A stretch of DNA of 36,004 bases, from contig JAEUHE010000230.1 in the NCBI GenBank assembly GCA_016793885.1, forward strand, positions 1-36,004, read 5' to 3'. A model generated the notes under the pieces. That model did not search any database, had not been told where the DNA came from, and saw nothing but the letters and a program-made list of their open reading frames with translations. The DNA is from Verrucomicrobiales bacterium (GTDB taxonomy: Bacteria; Verrucomicrobiota; Verrucomicrobiia; Limisphaerales; UBA11320). Shown here piece after piece: positions 1 to 28,768 of the stretch. How positions within the stretch are numbered: position 1 is the stretch's first letter; the number at the start of each line of letters is the position of its first letter. The position numbers were made by a program, and so were the translations under genes.

Positions 1-1
1 A

Positions 2-3000
2 GGCGGGCAGGTGTTCGACCAGGTCTTCGCGGCCGTCGATCAGTGTGGATCGGGGCCCGACGTCGGCATCGTCACGCTCACGAACGCCGGCACCTATTCA
101 CTCACTGTCTACGGGATCCTGGACTTCACGACACCGTATGCTTTCCAGATCGTGCCCGTGGTTCCCCAGCAGTTCGCACTCAACCTCGGTCAAACCGTGA
201 CCAACGGGGTTCCCGCCGCCGGCGCCGGCAACATCGAATCTCCAGGAGCCACCGACACCTACACCTTCACCGCAACCGCCGGTCAGACTGTCTACTTCGA
301 TGAAATGACCGGGTTCGGCTGCAACCCATTCCTGCGTTGGCGCCTGGTCAACCCGCAAGGTGGCCAGGTGTTCGACCAGGTCTTCGCGGCTTTCGATCAG
401 TGTGGATCGGGGCCCGATGTCGGCATCGTCACGCTCACGAATGCCGGCACCTATTCCCTCACTGTCTACGGGGTCCTGGACTTCACGACACCGTATGCTT
501 TCCAGATCGTGCCCGTGGTTCCCCAGCAGTTCGCACTCAACCTCGGTCAAACCGTGACCAACGGGTTTCCCGCCGTCGGCGCCGGCAACATCGAATCCCC
601 CGGAGCAACTGATTCCTACACCTTCACGGCAACCGCGGGTCAGATGGTTTACTTCGATGAACAAACTGGTTTAGGTTGCAACCCGCAACTGCGTTGGCGT
701 GTGGTCAACCCACAGGGCGTTCAGGTGTTCGACCAAATCTTCGCAGCGGTGGACCAGTGCAACTCGGGTTCCGACGTCGGCCTTGTCACGCTTACCAATG
801 CCGGCAGCTACACCGTCACCGTCTATGGAGTCCTGGATTTCACGACACCGTATGCCTTCCGAATCGTGCCCGTGGTTCCGCAGCAGTTCGCGCTGAACCT
901 GGGTCAAGCCGTGACCAACGGATCTCCCACAGCCGGTGCCGGCAACATTGAATCCCCCGGAGCCACCGACACCTACACCTTCACCGCAACCGCGGGCCAA
1001 TCGTTCTTTTTTGACGAGTTAACCGGGTTAGGCTGTTCTTCCGGCCTGCGCTGGCAACTGCGGAATCCTCAGGGAATCCGAGTTTTCGATGACCTATTCG
1101 CGGCTATCGATCAATGCAACTCGGGAGGCGATATCGGCAAGGTTACCCTCCCGGCAACCGGGATCTACACCCTCACGGTCTACGGAGTTCTCGACACGAC
1201 CGATACCTATTCGTTTGTGGTCTGGCCGCTGCAAGCGCCGCTGGTTCCCACGATCGCGAATCGGGTGCTCAATGAAGGATCCAGCCTGGACCTCACAGTC
1301 ATAGCCTCCGCCTCCAGCCCCCAGGGATACCCGCTCCGATTTGAGCTGGTGACGGGGCCCAGCGGCGCAACCGTCCATCCCACCTCGGGAAAAGTCCGCT
1401 GGCTCGTTCCTATCGGAGTGTTCGGCGACAATGCCTTCACGATCCGAGTTCGCGACGCGCTGGGCCAGTCAACCTTGGCTTCCTTCTCCGTCGGCGTCGT
1501 CGCCGCCGGTGATCTGACGTTCTCCAAATTCAGCGCTCCGCTCACGGGATCCAGTGGAGCCTCCTTCAATGTGGTCAGCGAGGAGAAAAATGTCGGCAGC
1601 ACCACCCTCGCAGGAAAGTGGGAACAGCGGGTCTGGCTCTCGACCGACGCCGTCCTCGATCCCGACGATACGCTGCTGGGCCTCTTTCCTTCCAATGGAC
1701 CGCTGAGCCCAGGACAACTCATCAGTCGTAACACGCGGTTCACTTGGCCCACCGCACCCGGCACCTACTATCTGTTTGCCCGGGTCGATGCGACCGAGGC
1801 GGTGCAGGAATCGAACGAGGAGAACAACCTCCAGCGGCTGGGGCCGATCACGATTGGACCCGAATACAATGCCGTGGTCTCGAGTGATCTCGAAATCGGA
1901 CTGAGTGGGACCGTCCTGCCGCTGCGCGGCAGCGCCACCAAGCCGGACGGATCACCAGCGGTGAACGTCCCGGTGACCCTGCACATCCAAGTGCGAGCCA
2001 CAACCCGCCGATTGTCCGTGACGACCGATTCCGCCGGACAGTTCGTCACCCTATTTCGGCCGCTTCTGGGAGAGGCGGGAAACTACACCGTGGGCGCTGG
2101 CCATCCCGGTTTGGCCGATGTTCCCGCTCAGGATCAGTTCAAGCTGTTGGGAATATCCCTCAATCCGAGGGAAACGACCATCGCGCTCCCCGCGAACGGC
2201 AGCCAAACCTTCGATCTCAAGCTCAAGAATCGCAGCCAAGAGACCCTGCAAGGGCTTAAGGCCGAACTCCTGGGGCTTCCTGAAGACGCCCCTCTAACAG
2301 TCACCGTGCGACCTCCGTCGAGCTTGGCTGGTGACCAAGAAATCACGGTACCCCTAGAGGTGCGCTCGACCTCGCCGGTGGGATATGCGGCCCGCACCAC
2401 GCTCCGAATCCGGACGGCGGAGGGTGCCATCGCCGAAACGACCTTGCTCATCGAGGTCAGTCCGCTGGCGTCCAAGCTTGTGGCTGTGCCTTCCCCCCTC
2501 AATGGGAGCATGCTGCGTGGCCAACAGAGGGTGATCGAGTTCGACGTTCGAAACACCGGAGCCAATGCCAGTGGTCCGGTCCAGATCTTGTTGCCATCCG
2601 TGGGATGGATGAGCGTTGCCAATCGTCTGCCCTTGGCTTCCATTCCCGCGGGAGGTTCGGCCGCGGTCGGGCTCCTCCTCCAACCGGACGCCTCCCTGCC
2701 CCTGGGCGACCATCAGGGAACGCTGATTCTCACCGACGGGACAACTTCCACAACTCTCCCCTATCGATTCACCGCGACATCCGATCTTCTGGGAAGCCTA
2801 ACCGTCGAGGTGGTCGATGAACTCACCTACTACGCCGATGGGTCACCGAAAGTGTCGGGAGCGAACGTGATCCTGCGTCAGCAGGGCAGCCTTACCGTCG
2901 TGACCAACCAGGTCACCGATGCCCAGGGCCGCGCCCAGTTCCAAGGCCTCCGCGAGGGCTATTACGATGTCGAGGTCACCGCTTCGAAGCACAGCACGTA

Positions 3001-7273: not shown

Positions 7274-7667
7274 CTCATCGTTACCTCCAAAAAGGCGGAC
7301 TAGACAAGCTGGGCAAAACCGTCGTGTCTCACTTTGTCGGCAAGGCCCGAACCCGCAGGGTTCAAAGAGATTTAGCCGGGGGTGCTCGCACCCCCGGAAC
7401 TGTTAAAATACGGAGCATCGCGCAGCGATGCCACCAGCTTCCCAAACGTGCGTCACCCCTCCTCGAACAACCTAATCAGTTCGTCAGTCCGTTCGCCGAA
7501 GGGTGGCACGCCTTTCAGGGTGCTGTCTATTAGGGGGCCGACAGACCGGGGGTGTCGCTGCTCTCCACGCCCCGGCTAATCTCTTTGAACCCCGCGGGTT
7601 CTCCGCCGCGATGAGGGTTGCCAACCTCACCTCGGGTCTAGCGTTGAGATTTAGGGGTCAGGGTAAG
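7274..7667. mobile_element. Decayed copy of the ~0.4-kb palindrome-targeting element
   Basis: This fills most of the gap between the giant gene and the response regulator. The left end CTCATCGTTACCTCCAAAAA matches the terminal repeat of the two well-preserved copies near 24.7 and 26.3 kb. The conserved core is present in the same orientation as the 26.3-kb copy: GAACCCGCAGGGTTC at 7349-7363 and its inverted partner GAACCCCGCGGGTTC at 7587-7601. The right terminal repeat is eroded (GGTAA at 7662-7666). Flanking sequences GGAGTGCGGT (7260-7269) and GCCGGACTCC (7676-7685) are the two arms of the palindrome the other copies sit in. No transposase is encoded. The exact right end is uncertain. Confidence 0.7.
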
Positions 7668-24713: not shown

Positions 24714-25140
24714 ACAGGAGTCTCACCTTTACCTTCAAAAAAGGGGACTATACAAGCTGTAGGCACTTCCTCGCATGAGTCCCCGAAGCCGAAGCCCAGA
24801 ACCCGCAGGGTTCAAAGAGATTAGCCGGGGCGTGGAGCGCAGCGACACCCCCGGTCTGTCGGCCCCCTATTCGATAGCACCCTGAAAGGCGTGCCACCCG
24901 TCGGCGAACGGACTGACCAACTGATTAGGTTCTGTGAGGAGTGGTGGCGCACGTCTCAGAAGCCGGTGGCATCGCTCCGCGATGCTCGGTACTTACAACA
25001 GTTCCGGGGGTGCGAGCACCCCCGGCTAAATCTCTTTGAACCCTGCGGGTTCGGGCTCTGCCGGCAAAGCGAGAGACGCCGGCGTTGCCGAGCTTGCCTG
25101 GTCCCCACTTTTGGAGGTAAAGAGGAGACAGGGGTGCCGC
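24709..25140. repeat. Occupied palindrome (GCAGC ... GCCGC) with 8-bp target duplications
   Basis: The palindrome arms GCAGC (24709-24713) and GCCGC (25136-25140) are split by the element. The 8-bp centre appears on both sides: ACAGGAGT (24714-24721) and ACAGGGGT (25128-25135), one mismatch. The duplicate locus has a single ACAGGGGT (28221-28228) in the same place, so this is a filled site with a known empty counterpart. Confidence 0.88.
24722..25127. mobile_element. ~406-bp transposase-less element in a palindrome, copy 1
   Basis: The ends CTCACCTTTACCTTC and (reversed) CTCCTCTTTACCTCC form an imperfect terminal inverted repeat of at least 27 bp with 22 matches. Inside lie GAACCCGCAGGGTTC (24799-24813) and its exact inverted partner GAACCCTGCGGGTTC (25038-25052), plus several GC-rich hairpins. 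The core is inverted relative to the 26.3-kb copy. No transposase or other plausible protein is encoded, so it would need an enzyme supplied in trans (MITE-like). The insertion history is well supported by the empty duplicate site. Confidence 0.85.
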
Positions 25141-25377
25141 ACTCCATAAGGTCAAGCGCCTCGCGAAGCGTTTTGGTGTTGATCCTGAAGCGGTCCGATG
25201 AGGTTTATCGCTCGATGGTCCTGTAACTCTCTGTAAGCATCACTCACAAGTTCCTCGACCAAGTGTTAGAATCCCACAGGGATTCCGCCTCAAAGCCCAG
25301 GGTTGGCGCGAAGCAGGAGCGCCTACCCTGGGTTAGTCGTCGTTTTCCGGCCAACCCCATCGTGGGTTGCGGATCGG
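25136..25377. repeat. Palindrome cluster, copy 1 (duplicated near 28229-28467)
   Basis: This block contains GAATCCCACAGGGATTC (25269-25285), a strong hairpin with arms CCCAGGGTTGGCGC (25296-25309) and GCGCCTACCCTGGG (25319-25332), and CAACCCCATCGTGGGTTG. The whole block is nearly identical to 28229-28467. These are typical extragenic palindromes; no gene is read through them. Confidence 0.85.
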
Positions 25378-25555
25378 AGCTCAGACTACAAATGCCGGCT
25401 GCGACCACGGATGTCTCGGATGGCACGGATGGAAAATGACGGGGAGCCCCACCGTGAGGACTGGAGGGCACAATTGACGCTCACACAGACATTGAAATAC
25501 GCTCCCTTGTCAACTCGGTCTTGACCAAAAGTGCAGCTCCAGGCCACCGTGACTC
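25378..25555. other. Intergenic DNA with a lone CCACGGAT-type repeat arm
   Basis: This stretch precedes the DUF4410 lipoprotein gene and should carry its promoter. At 25405-25430 it has CCACGGATGTCTCGGATGGC and following bases, one arm of the repeat family that forms an inverted pair at 27335-27472. No partner arm is visible here. Confidence 0.6.
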
Positions 25556-26182
25556 ATGACTACGATCGCTCGACGGAGGCATTTACTTCGAACCATTCAC
25601 GCCCTGAGCCTTGGATTGATTTCACTCCTGTTGGCGGGATGCGGCTCCATCTCCAAGATCCAACCCTCGACGGAAGGTCAGTCTACGGATTTGACCAAAT
25701 ACTCCCGAGTCGTTGTGGCGTCCTTTGAGGACAAGGTGAGTGAGAAAGCGAAGGATCCAGAGGTCCAAGCCCGACGACGGACCGGCGTCGGACGCTTTCG
25801 TGAACTGCTAGCTCTCGAGCTCCGATCATCAGGCGCCTTTGCGCACTTTTCCACCGAGGCCTCAACCGAGCCCAATACCCTGCTCATCGGTGGGACGGTA
25901 ACTCGGTATGTCGAAGGAAGCGGCTTCGCCCGCCTGGCCATTGGAATGGGCGCCGGAAATGCCTACTTCGATGCGACAGTGGAGATCCGCGATGCGGCCA
26001 CCAAGCAGCTGCTGGGGACTGTCGTGGTGGACCGCAATAGCTGGGGCGGCGGCGGAGTTTTCTCGATGTCGCAGACCTTGGATAACTTCATGAACGAGGC
26101 GGCCAAGAATGTCTCCGCGCAGATCGTAGCGGCCAAGACCGTCGGACGCTTTACGCCGCCCAAGAACACGCGCCCTCGCTAA
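25556..26182 (+). CDS. DUF4410-family lipoprotein
   Basis: This 208-residue exported lipoprotein has a basic N-terminus, a hydrophobic stretch, then a lipobox LLAGCGS with Cys at about residue 29. The mature domain has VVVASFEDK, then IGGTVTRYVEGSGFARLAIG and MGAGNAYFDATVEIRDAAT, the pattern I associate with DUF4410. Function unknown; probably attached to a membrane facing the periplasm. It is a single gene, flanked on both sides by repeat clusters, with no operon partner. Confidence 0.9.
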   Translation: MTTIARRRHLLRTIHALSLGLISLLLAGCGSISKIQPSTEGQSTDLTKYSRVVVASFEDKVSEKAKDPEVQARRRTGVGRFRELLALELRSSGAFAHFSTEASTEPNTLLIGGTVTRYVEGSGFARLAIGMGAGNAYFDATVEIRDAATKQLLGTVVVDRNSWGGGGVFSMSQTLDNFMNEAAKNVSAQIVAAKTVGRFTPPKNTRPR

Positions 26183-26310
26183 ATCGATTTTCGGTGGTCA
26201 CTGCCACCGAGACTCCGCTACGCCTGTCCGACAGCGCCGGCTCAAATCCCTTCAACAGGGTCTTTGGAATTCCCGACTTCGTGGGGTTTGGACAAAAGCG
26301 GTAGAGAGCT
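26183..26310. other. Short 3' region of the lipoprotein gene and left arm of the target palindrome
   Basis: No gene is seen. The right end holds the left half of the element target palindrome (GCGGT at 26298-26302, then AGAGAGCT at 26303-26310). Confidence 0.6.
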
Positions 26311-26724
26311 CTCATCTTTACCTCCCAAAATGGGGACTAGACAAGTTGGGCCTTACAGCACCTGCTCACCTTGGTCTTAGCGGGTCCGAACCCGCAGGGT
26401 TCATAGACATTAGACGGGGGTGCTCGCCCCCCCCGGAACCGATAAAAATACGGAGCATCGCGCAGCGATGCCACCGGCTTCGGAGGTTGTCGCCCCCCCC
26501 ACTCAAGGAACAAAATCCGTTCCGGAGTCCACTGGCCGACGGGTGGCACGCCTTTCAGGGTGCCGTTCAATAGGGGGCGGTAGACCGGGGGTGTCGCTGC
26601 GCTCCACGCCCCGGCTAATCTCTTTGAACCCTGCGGGTTCTCGGCCGCGGAATCAGGAACTCCCCCGAAGAAGTGAGGATCTCCGACATCTTGTCTACTC
26701 CGCATTTTTGGAGGTAAAGATGAG
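26311..26724. mobile_element. ~414-bp transposase-less element in a palindrome, copy 2
   Basis: This copy has the best preserved terminal inverted repeats: 26311-26345 against 26690-26724, 32 of 35 matching (outer 15 bases CTCATCTTTACCTCC perfect). It sits between GCGGT (26298-26302) and ACCGC (26733-26737) with the 8-bp duplications AGAGAGCT (26303-26310) and AGAGGGCT (26725-26732), one mismatch. Internal inverted pair GAACCCGCAGGGTTC (26388-26402) and GAACCCTGCGGGTTC (26626-26640) plus a GCATCGCGCAGCGATGC hairpin. No protein-coding capacity that I can support. Confidence 0.87.
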
Positions 26725-26808
26725 AGAGGGCTACCGCTCTTTATACCGGCGGAGTCGACCCCTCAACATGTCGCAGCCAGAAAGCGAGGAACCCACGCCT
26801 ATGGAAGT

Positions 26809-27704: not shown

Positions 27705-28070
27705 CTAGGGTGGACTGCCCAGGTCGCTGTAAAACGTGAGAGCGTTGCGATCCGGGTCGTAGAGCGAGAACTCACGCGTATGCCATGGGGTAATGCGGAC
27801 GCCATCGGCGCTGCACTCGACGCCGCGTTGCTGATACTCGCGGAAGACGGCATCGGGTTCGTCGACCTGAAAGCGCAAACGAATAGTGCTCATCTCGTGA
27901 GGATATTGGAATTGCATATGGACTTCGACCTGGTCGCGGCGGAAGCCAACGTAATTGGGTTCGGCTGGGTGGTCCTGGAAAGCGAGTTCAAACCCGAGTC
28001 GCTCAGTGTAGAACTCGATGGCGCGACGAATGTCCCGGGTACCAATAATCGGATGCGTCTTTTTGAACAT
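27705..28070 (-). CDS. VOC-family (glyoxalase/bleomycin-resistance-like) protein
   Basis: This 121-residue protein comprises one vicinal-oxygen-chelate fold. It has IGTRDIRRAIEFYTERLGFEL at the N-terminus, YVGFRRDQVEVHMQF and the C-terminal strand FSLYDPDRNALTFYSDLG. The usual metal-binding Glu of the DP-GN-EF motif is replaced by Thr here, so it may not be a standard metalloenzyme. The start ATG at 28070 (MFKKTHPIIGT) is clear. A deleted, duplicated copy lies 3.2 kb to the left. Substrate unknown. Confidence 0.9.
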   Translation of the reverse strand: MFKKTHPIIGTRDIRRAIEFYTERLGFELAFQDHPAEPNYVGFRRDQVEVHMQFQYPHEMSTIRLRFQVDEPDAVFREYQQRGVECSADGVRITPWHTREFSLYDPDRNALTFYSDLGSPP

Positions 28071-28768
28071 AGCGATTCGAGTGGTTCAGTGTAGGCGTAT
28101 TCCTGAGCCATACCCGAGCTACCCTAGCCCAGCCAGAGTTGAGCCTACAAGCCAGCAAGGGTCAGTTGAAACAAGTGCGCGGGCGGCGATGACCGATTCC
28201 ATCGGAGAGGCCAAAGCGGCACAGGGGTGCCGCACTCCATAACGTCAAGCGCCCCGCGAAGCGTTTTGGTGGTGATCCTGAAGCGGTCCGATGAGGTTTA
28301 TAGCTCGATGGTCCTGTAGCTCACTCGAAGCATTACCCATAAGTTCCTCGACCAAATGTTAGAATCCCACAGGGATTCCGCCTCAAAGCCCAGGGTTGGC
28401 GCGAAGCAGGAGCGCCTACCCTGGGTTAGTCCTCGTTTTCCGGCCAACCCCATCGTGGGTTGCGGTCGCTTTGGCGTTTGGGTGATCGCCGATCCGCTTA
28501 AAAGCGGAACTCCGTGCGGGGCAGCGGACATCTGAGCTACCTTCTGGCCGGCCATCCGACGTTGAGGATGAACGAACGACCTCGGCATACCTGCCAAGAC
28601 TCCCGGAATCACCCACCACAGCAGACCGTGTTGTGAGGTGTTGCGCACGGTGACGAAAGCGCGATAGGGGCTAAAGCCAGGACTTGAGCGCTAGGAGCGG
28701 CCCTACTCGTCCGCATCGGCAACCAGGGTGACCCGCCCGCATTCGCTCGAGTGCTTTTGTCGGGCATT
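28071..28768. other. Repeat-rich intergenic region with palindrome cluster, copy 2
   Basis: This holds the unoccupied GCGGC-N8-GCCGC palindrome (28216-28233), GAATCCCACAGGGATTC (28362-28378), the hairpin with arms 28389-28402 and 28412-28425, and a CCGCTTAAAAGCGG hairpin near 28496. The part up to about 28467 is the duplicate of 24.5-25.4 kb; the rest is unique. No gene is supported. Confidence 0.8.
28216..28233. repeat. Extragenic palindrome GCGGC-N8-GCCGC, unoccupied
   Basis: GCGGCACAGGGGTGCCGC with centre ACAGGGGT (28221-28228). It lies in the second copy of the duplicated VOC block, at exactly the position where copy 1 carries the 406-bp element. The same flanking bases (CCAAA before, ACTCCATAA after) are present. 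Confidence 0.92.

Follow-up and report, generated by a model that had tools for sequence, protein, structure and literature searches.

In REP/REPIN-RAYT systems (REPtrons), hairpin repeats with a GT[AG]G tetranucleotide at the hairpin foot are arranged in inverted doublets and in arrays beside a single-domain HUH-Y1 gene of signature Y---NP, and gene-less doublets are spread through the genome. IS200/IS605 and RAYT enzymes bind single-stranded DNA hairpins and cut beside them, according to the available part of Quentin et al. 2018 (PMC6006769). In the same partial text, TnpA-Y1 subclass 1.2 includes short proteins with HUH and Y---Q--HH, mostly from Cyanobacteria and Bacteroidetes and generally without terminal secondary structures, and class 3, with signature Y----Q and a CnGA foot, is associated with atypical secondary structures in many copies in Planctomycetes and Acidobacteria. 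The name TIRtrons was given in 2013 to Y1 genes enclosed by double-palindromic repeats (PMC3733652); the portion of that text available reports RAYT-like genes (TIRYT) between inverted repeats, some of them double palindromes, with Acidobacteria included, and holds no link to Acido-Lenti-1. Insertion elements such as ISPpu9 are reported to enter REP sequences (PMC8450116). Acido-Lenti-1 (RF01687; PMC2864571) is an Rfam sRNA of unknown function, composed of a hairpin, GGCTAA, 6 nt and a 15 nt hairpin in this order; it is also treated in the available parts of PMC13298647 and PMC10059132.

The element described here has a core that is probably a transposase-less, REPIN-like doublet of a HUH Y1 subclass 1.2 system, carried in a second, MITE shell. 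The system shares with REPtrons the inverted doublets, the arrays, the neighbouring single-domain gene and the scattered gene-less doublets, but its unit combines a pair of hairpins with ATTAGCC and a linker of constant length, 6 nt, and its enzyme is of the Y---Q--HH type. HUH, Y---Q--HH and the short protein are those of subclass 1.2, to which most of the enzymes are assigned by signature; unlike what is generally described for its members, they are bracketed by units and belong to other phyla. Class 3 is similar in its atypical structures, copy number and phyla and differs in signature and foot. Some TIRtron repeats may be the same as these units, seen before without the Acido-Lenti-1 link. 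The shell, as ISPpu9, inserts into REP sequences; unlike such elements it carries a REPIN-like doublet, and its parent was not found in the genomes searched. Finally, unit U of the core has the same order of parts as Acido-Lenti-1, which is instead filed as RNA and whose score the copy in the window does not reach.

The element and its core

The window, that is, the whole analysed stretch of 36,004 nucleotides (contig C230 of a genome of 8.7 Mb in 274 contigs), contains three copies of an element of ~410 bp (24722-25127, 26311-26724 and 7274-7601). The initial annotation had placed the element in the interval 24722-26724; the copies there are real, but they are two distinct elements kept apart by other sequence, and the third lies elsewhere. 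A first look by BLAST in the same genome yielded 203 candidates for the element; the 40 that were scored gave 40 main matches. The features are the following.

24714..24721: left target duplication of copy A, ACAGGAGT
24722..25127, + strand: element copy A, 406 bp, best of the 40 scored genome matches; ends from the target duplication and the empty site
24722..24756, + strand: left terminal inverted repeat of copy A (repeat search, own genome)
24799..25052, + strand: core of copy A, from alignment A1 of 44 cores; aligns with one array period at the C153 transposase gene
24799..24854, - strand: double-hairpin unit U (hairpin A, linker, TTAGCC, hairpin B), from descriptor match and pair counts
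24877..24894: hairpin h3, GCACCCTGAAAGGCGTGC, from pair counts
24969..24985: hairpin h2, GCATCGCTCCGCGATGC, source of the PVASLRDARY frame, from pair counts
25004..25052, + strand: unit U, inverted twin of 24799-24854 (descriptor match 25004-25055)
25093..25127, - strand: right terminal inverted repeat of copy A (repeat search, own genome)
25128..25135: right target duplication of copy A, ACAGGGGT, one mismatch to the left one
26303-26310 and 26725-26732: target duplications of copy B, AGAGAGCT and AGAGGGCT
26311..26724, - strand: element copy B, 414 bp, core 26388-26640, orientation opposite to copy A
7274..7601, - strand: element copy C, with one terminal repeat at 7274-7308 and core 7349-7601; other end eroded
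28221..28228: empty target site ACAGGGGT in the paralogous block 28020-28465 (repeat families D2-D4 and sequence)

The core spans ~253 bp and, in minus-strand orientation for copy A, reads U(-)-h2-~65 bp spacer-h3-U(+). In unit U, hairpin A (6 bp stem, 3 nt loop) is followed by a short linker, TTAGCC and hairpin B in a fixed geometry. The exact inverted pair reported by the initial annotation was recovered: GAACCCGCAGGGTTC lies at 7349, 24799 and 26388 on the plus strand and, inverted, at 7587, 25038 and 26626 (five sites exact, one with one mismatch; shuffle expectation 0.17), with starts 238-239 bp apart where ~220-240 bp had been claimed, and the hairpins named there, together with GGTGGCACGCCTTTCAGGGTGC, are present in the window copies. 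Throughout the genome 44 full cores of 245-255 bp were aligned (A1, mean column identity 89%); L050, which has an internal deletion, and other, incomplete copies located at contig ends were not included.

Among 58 genomes of the order, this one included, the whole element occurs only in its own genome. Matches to it are found in 10 of the 58, and those listed for the other nine correspond to query positions 74-178, namely to unit U.

Units beside Y1 transposase genes

The same genome encodes a Y1 transposase of 147 aa (C153:31561-32005, PF01797) in which HUH, Tyr, Gln and HH are kept. The gene lies within an array of core modules, U(-)-h2-[TnpA-Y1 gene]-h3-U(+), in the order found in the core, and a gene-less period of the array aligns with the core end to end with scores of 130.5 and 138.5 (200 shuffles: 46-47, maxima 68.5 and 70). 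The core would thus be the inverted doublet U(-)-h2-spacer-h3-U(+) minus the TnpA-Y1 gene, with its complete counterpart on C153. MITE copy L042 has, where the usual hairpin would stand, the type of the C153 array (GATTAGCCGGGCGATCG..GATCCCCGG), a sign that array and MITE may have exchanged sequence. By eye, the Y1 gene of G010:C1 has the same arrangement as that of C153. A second short Y1 gene of the genome that contains the window, on C14, has Acido-Lenti-1 matches on both sides; this Y---Q--HH gene (C14:51800-53000, L089) is accompanied by its own unit family, CCTGGGG...CCCCAGGCTGRGATAGGACGC...

Since these cases had been found by nearness, other Y1 loci were tested. Among the matches listed, Y1_Tnp occurs in 50 of the 58 genomes of the order; 28 short-type loci were taken down the Y1_Tnp listing, without loci already used and without G039:C129 (contig end), and L093-L100, chosen for known nearness, entered no test. 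A structure descriptor was used instead of a covariance model because alignment A2 places the left arm of hairpin B in the wrong register; as the descriptor demands pairing, its paired fractions were not counted as evidence. Units within 1 kb were found at 13 of the 28 short-type loci (35 units, shuffles 0.65; none at the other 15) and at 2 of 20 long-type loci hand-picked as controls from the lower part of the same listing (2 units, shuffles 0.4; p=0.011). Acido-Lenti-1 at E<=0.05 was matched at 9 of 20 short-type loci (19 matches, only L116 over the cut-off) against 1 of the 20 long-type loci (p=0.008), and 13 of 20 loci of the second short-type set were positive by either measure against 3 of 20 long-type loci (p=0.003). 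The long-type proteins are class 2 (Y---NP) at all 20 loci, none with Y---Q--HH, a motif present at 21 of the 28 short-type loci; HUH plus Y---Q--HH, the subclass 1.2 signature, is found in 15 of 15 aligned enzymes (A3), those of C153 and C14 included.

A scan of named genomes with these 15 enzymes returned at least 576 relatives, of which the best 80 were kept; 72 of the 80 have Y---Q--HH. Descriptor units occur at 62 of the 80 loci (146 units in 208 kb, 1.6 in shuffles), in records of Planctomycetota, Verrucomicrobiota, Acidobacteria groups, Methylobacter, Sumerlaeota, Hydrogenedentota and others. Within the same best 80 of at least 576, the nearest upstream unit is inverted in 47 of 54 cases, the nearest downstream unit direct in 36 of 45, and 28 of 37 two-sided loci have the (-,+) arrangement; the median distance from unit to gene is 63-68 nt, with gene ends partly approximate. 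A further hairpin between U(-) and the start codon is found at 28 of 43 loci (shuffles 10.1, maximum 16). The similarity of the units follows that of the enzymes (r=0.57, 43 loci, 0 of 2000 permutations), a correlation that may reflect joint inheritance. At 18 of the 80 loci no descriptor unit was found, 17 of them with the subclass 1.2 signature; Prevotellaceae and Bacteroidetes loci (L221, L244) are among these.

At the level of sequence, the association of units with Y1 subclass 1.2 genes is well supported: as in REPIN-RAYT systems, a Y1 transposase gene lies between the units, and the units are arranged as inverted doublets. By analogy with the IS200/IS605 and RAYT enzymes, the subclass 1.2 enzyme would use unit U, and the gene-less inverted doublet would be a REPIN-like miniature; the enzyme would bind and cut the hairpins as single-stranded DNA and would once have copied the doublet. 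This binding, cutting and past copying are inferred from the co-location, the shared order of parts and the covariation reported below.

Acido-Lenti-1 and compensatory change

The units of this genome and of its relatives follow the Acido-Lenti-1 plan: hairpin, GGCTA, linker and a hairpin with a 6 bp stem and a 3 nt loop. The link between core and family is carried by the order of parts and by intermediates, not by score. The window gave no match in an Rfam scan at gathering scores, its copy none to the Acido-Lenti-1 model up to E=10, and the C153 array none up to E=0.5. Of 11 core-like loci scanned, 6 gave 7 matches at E<=1 (34.6 bits at L075, 21-29 at the others), so that core-like loci stay at or below 34.6 bits; because it does not reach the cut-off of 37 bits, the copy in the window is not counted in the family. 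Elsewhere in the genome that contains the window 34 matches are listed at E<=0.01, 13 of them over the cut-off. Among the matches listed, the family is present at E<=0.001 in 43 of the 58 genomes of the order (32 over the cut-off) and in none of 14 control genomes, one of which has a match at E<=0.01, below the cut-off; the Acido-Lenti-1 and Y1_Tnp listings share neighbouring places. In the openly accessible main texts searched, no paper was found that links Acido-Lenti-1 to a transposase, and the family stands beside the word "transposase" in the 2010 paper only.

Compensatory change in the hairpins, which the initial annotation had proposed as one check on selection for a structured DNA or RNA, is clear between genera only. 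Among the copies of this genome both-sided pair changes occur in 3 of 1795 cells (column shuffles 0.2), no more frequently than with slid partners (0-4), and RNAalifold gave a covariation term of 0.15, without support. For the comparison between genera, loci were chosen by BLAST sequence similarity alone; the anchor ATTAGCCGG was found at 16 of 17 loci examined from other genomes and is absent at L070. In 13 distinct sequences of hairpin A (two rows identical to others left out) 77 of 78 cells are paired, against 75.9% in shuffles and 14-50% with slid partners, and 5 of the 6 pairs are changed on both sides. As these loci were found by similarity, the hairpin A structure is kept across genera by compensatory change.

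These data are read here in favour of a DNA function, and we lean towards the view that Acido-Lenti-1, rather than being an RNA, is the unit of single-stranded DNA that TnpA-Y1 subclass 1.2 enzymes recognise, of REPtron type, with two hairpins in a fixed geometry, and that it accompanies genes of Verrucomicrobiota, Planctomycetota, Acidobacteriota and Methylobacter; in the present genome the doublet would be carried in a MITE that inserts into a second REP family, as mobile DNA nested three deep. It is unlikely that the units are instead structured RNAs, as Acido-Lenti-1 is catalogued, with a cell role such as termination or mRNA stability and with the nearness to Y1 genes a secondary matter. 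The Rfam entry as sRNA is in line with such a role, compensatory changes between genera suit an RNA as well as single-stranded DNA, and REPs are believed to work in part at the RNA level (PMC3733652, in the part available); but a role in the cell would account poorly for units that bracket Y1 genes in inverted orientation at so short a median distance, that are rare at class 2 Y1 loci and that resemble one another as their enzymes do. If the DNA reading is true, two orphans would be joined: a class of HUH enzymes for which DNA partner structures are described as generally absent, and an Rfam RNA whose function is unknown. The annotated ncRNA family should then be called mobile DNA, and one oligonucleotide of ~50 nt would suffice to test the substrate of subclass 1.2 in vitro.

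A unit-like sequence is also seen by eye outside the elements: on the minus strand of window 25270-25332, and in a paralogue near 28363-28425, CCCAGGGTAGG...CCAACCCTGGG CTTTG AGGCGG AATCCCTGTGGGATT has the plan of unit U, and a similar unit, again by eye, lies beside the Y1 gene of L193.

The MITE shell and the decay of the core

The shell is an ordinary MITE, with terminal repeats of ~35 bp, an 8 bp target duplication and an empty site; inverted repeats are present at both ends and no transposase gene inside. In the same genome 21 bases of the terminal repeat have 63 matches (reversed control, 0), and by fuzzy matching 15 of the 44 copies have both repeats, 9 the left only, 13 the right only and 7 neither. 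The paralogue at 28020-28465 is without the element, and ACAGGGGT is single there; copy A is flanked by ACAGGAGT and ACAGGGGT. An 8 bp duplication with at most 2 mismatches is found in 8 of the 15 two-ended copies (3 exact), and in the other 7 the flanking octamers have at least 3 mismatches. GCGG precedes the octamer within six bases at 37 of 52 ends (background 2.2%). The target AAAGCGGYNGAGGGCTNCCGC has 208 occurrences in the genome at up to 2 mismatches (control, 1) and, among the matches listed, is often in alternating arrays, which indicates a REP-like palindrome; at C20:27344-27849 and elsewhere in this genome such palindromes alternate in orientation ~61 bp apart.

The shell moved with duplication of 8 bp of target DNA, preferentially into the centre of these palindromes. 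The target duplications attribute to it the copying visible in this genome, and there is no sign of the core moving alone, since all copies seen with flanks look MITE-borne. No convergent long pair, as expected of a full transposon with these ends, occurs among the 63 matches, and the shell transposase was not found in the same genome; the exact terminal-repeat pattern has no match in the genome contig database. Among relatives, one repeated near-match to the shell ends is present at nine identical sites of G057, adjoining one truncated gene with an IS4/Tn5 DNA-binding domain (PF14706). The sole other PF14706 gene of G057, on C162, has no such repeat within the 2.9 kb examined, and the truncated protein has no match in the genome of the window, a search of little weight. 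On this single truncated relative, the shell enzyme may tentatively be taken as of the IS4/Tn5 type.

Conservation is concentrated in the core. Mean pairwise identity in 14 of the 15 copies with both terminal repeats (L020, with a poor right end, was left out) is 0.873 in the core, 0.73-0.76 in the subterminal DNA and 0.76-0.81 at the termini, and within the core 0.88-0.96 in hairpin parts against 0.73-0.86 in spacers. The centre is therefore better conserved than the subterminal DNA, as the initial annotation had maintained, and the uniform decay that it named as contrary evidence is contradicted. Its description of a symmetric, hairpin-rich core without a transposase of its own also holds, with the hairpins best conserved; what it judged unusual for a dead MITE is indeed an unusual core, but the plain MITE shell and the matching enzyme gene elsewhere in the genome had been overlooked. 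Of the two causes that it offered, selection or frequent recent copying, the former is not proven for the hairpins within this genome: they would stay similar to one another through recent copying, or through exchange between copies, as well. Continued use by an enzyme, exchange with unit arrays and recent copying are all possible causes of the slower hairpin decay.

The terminal repeats, the 8 bp duplications, the empty site and the scarcity of compensatory changes among the copies of this genome are what would be expected if the whole were a plain MITE, with the core a passive passenger conserved only by recent copying or exchange between copies. As a full account this is quite improbable: the hairpins and spacers of the same copies decay differently, the plan of the core recurs at Y1 genes in other phyla, and the mobility seen here is explained but not the origin of the core, for which the REPIN-like doublet is preferred. 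That the core is a coding remnant is scarcely credible, for although open frames of 111 and 122 aa run through the cores, PVASLRDARY is the translation of hairpin h2, recurs as such in the hairpin arrays beside the C153 transposase gene (L090), on the other strand from that gene, and belongs to a frame that does not look like a gene, and conservation tracks the hairpins.

Other elements share the shell. Miniatures of ~150-200 bp (L053, L054) have the same ends and the core only in part, and a second MITE subfamily (L047 517-652, L062 1-136, L058) has the same terminal repeat and a different interior with a CCCAGGGTT hairpin. In addition, a direct repeat of 300 nt occurs three times in window 1-1014, at a spacing of 357 bp, within a frame of 2411 aa.
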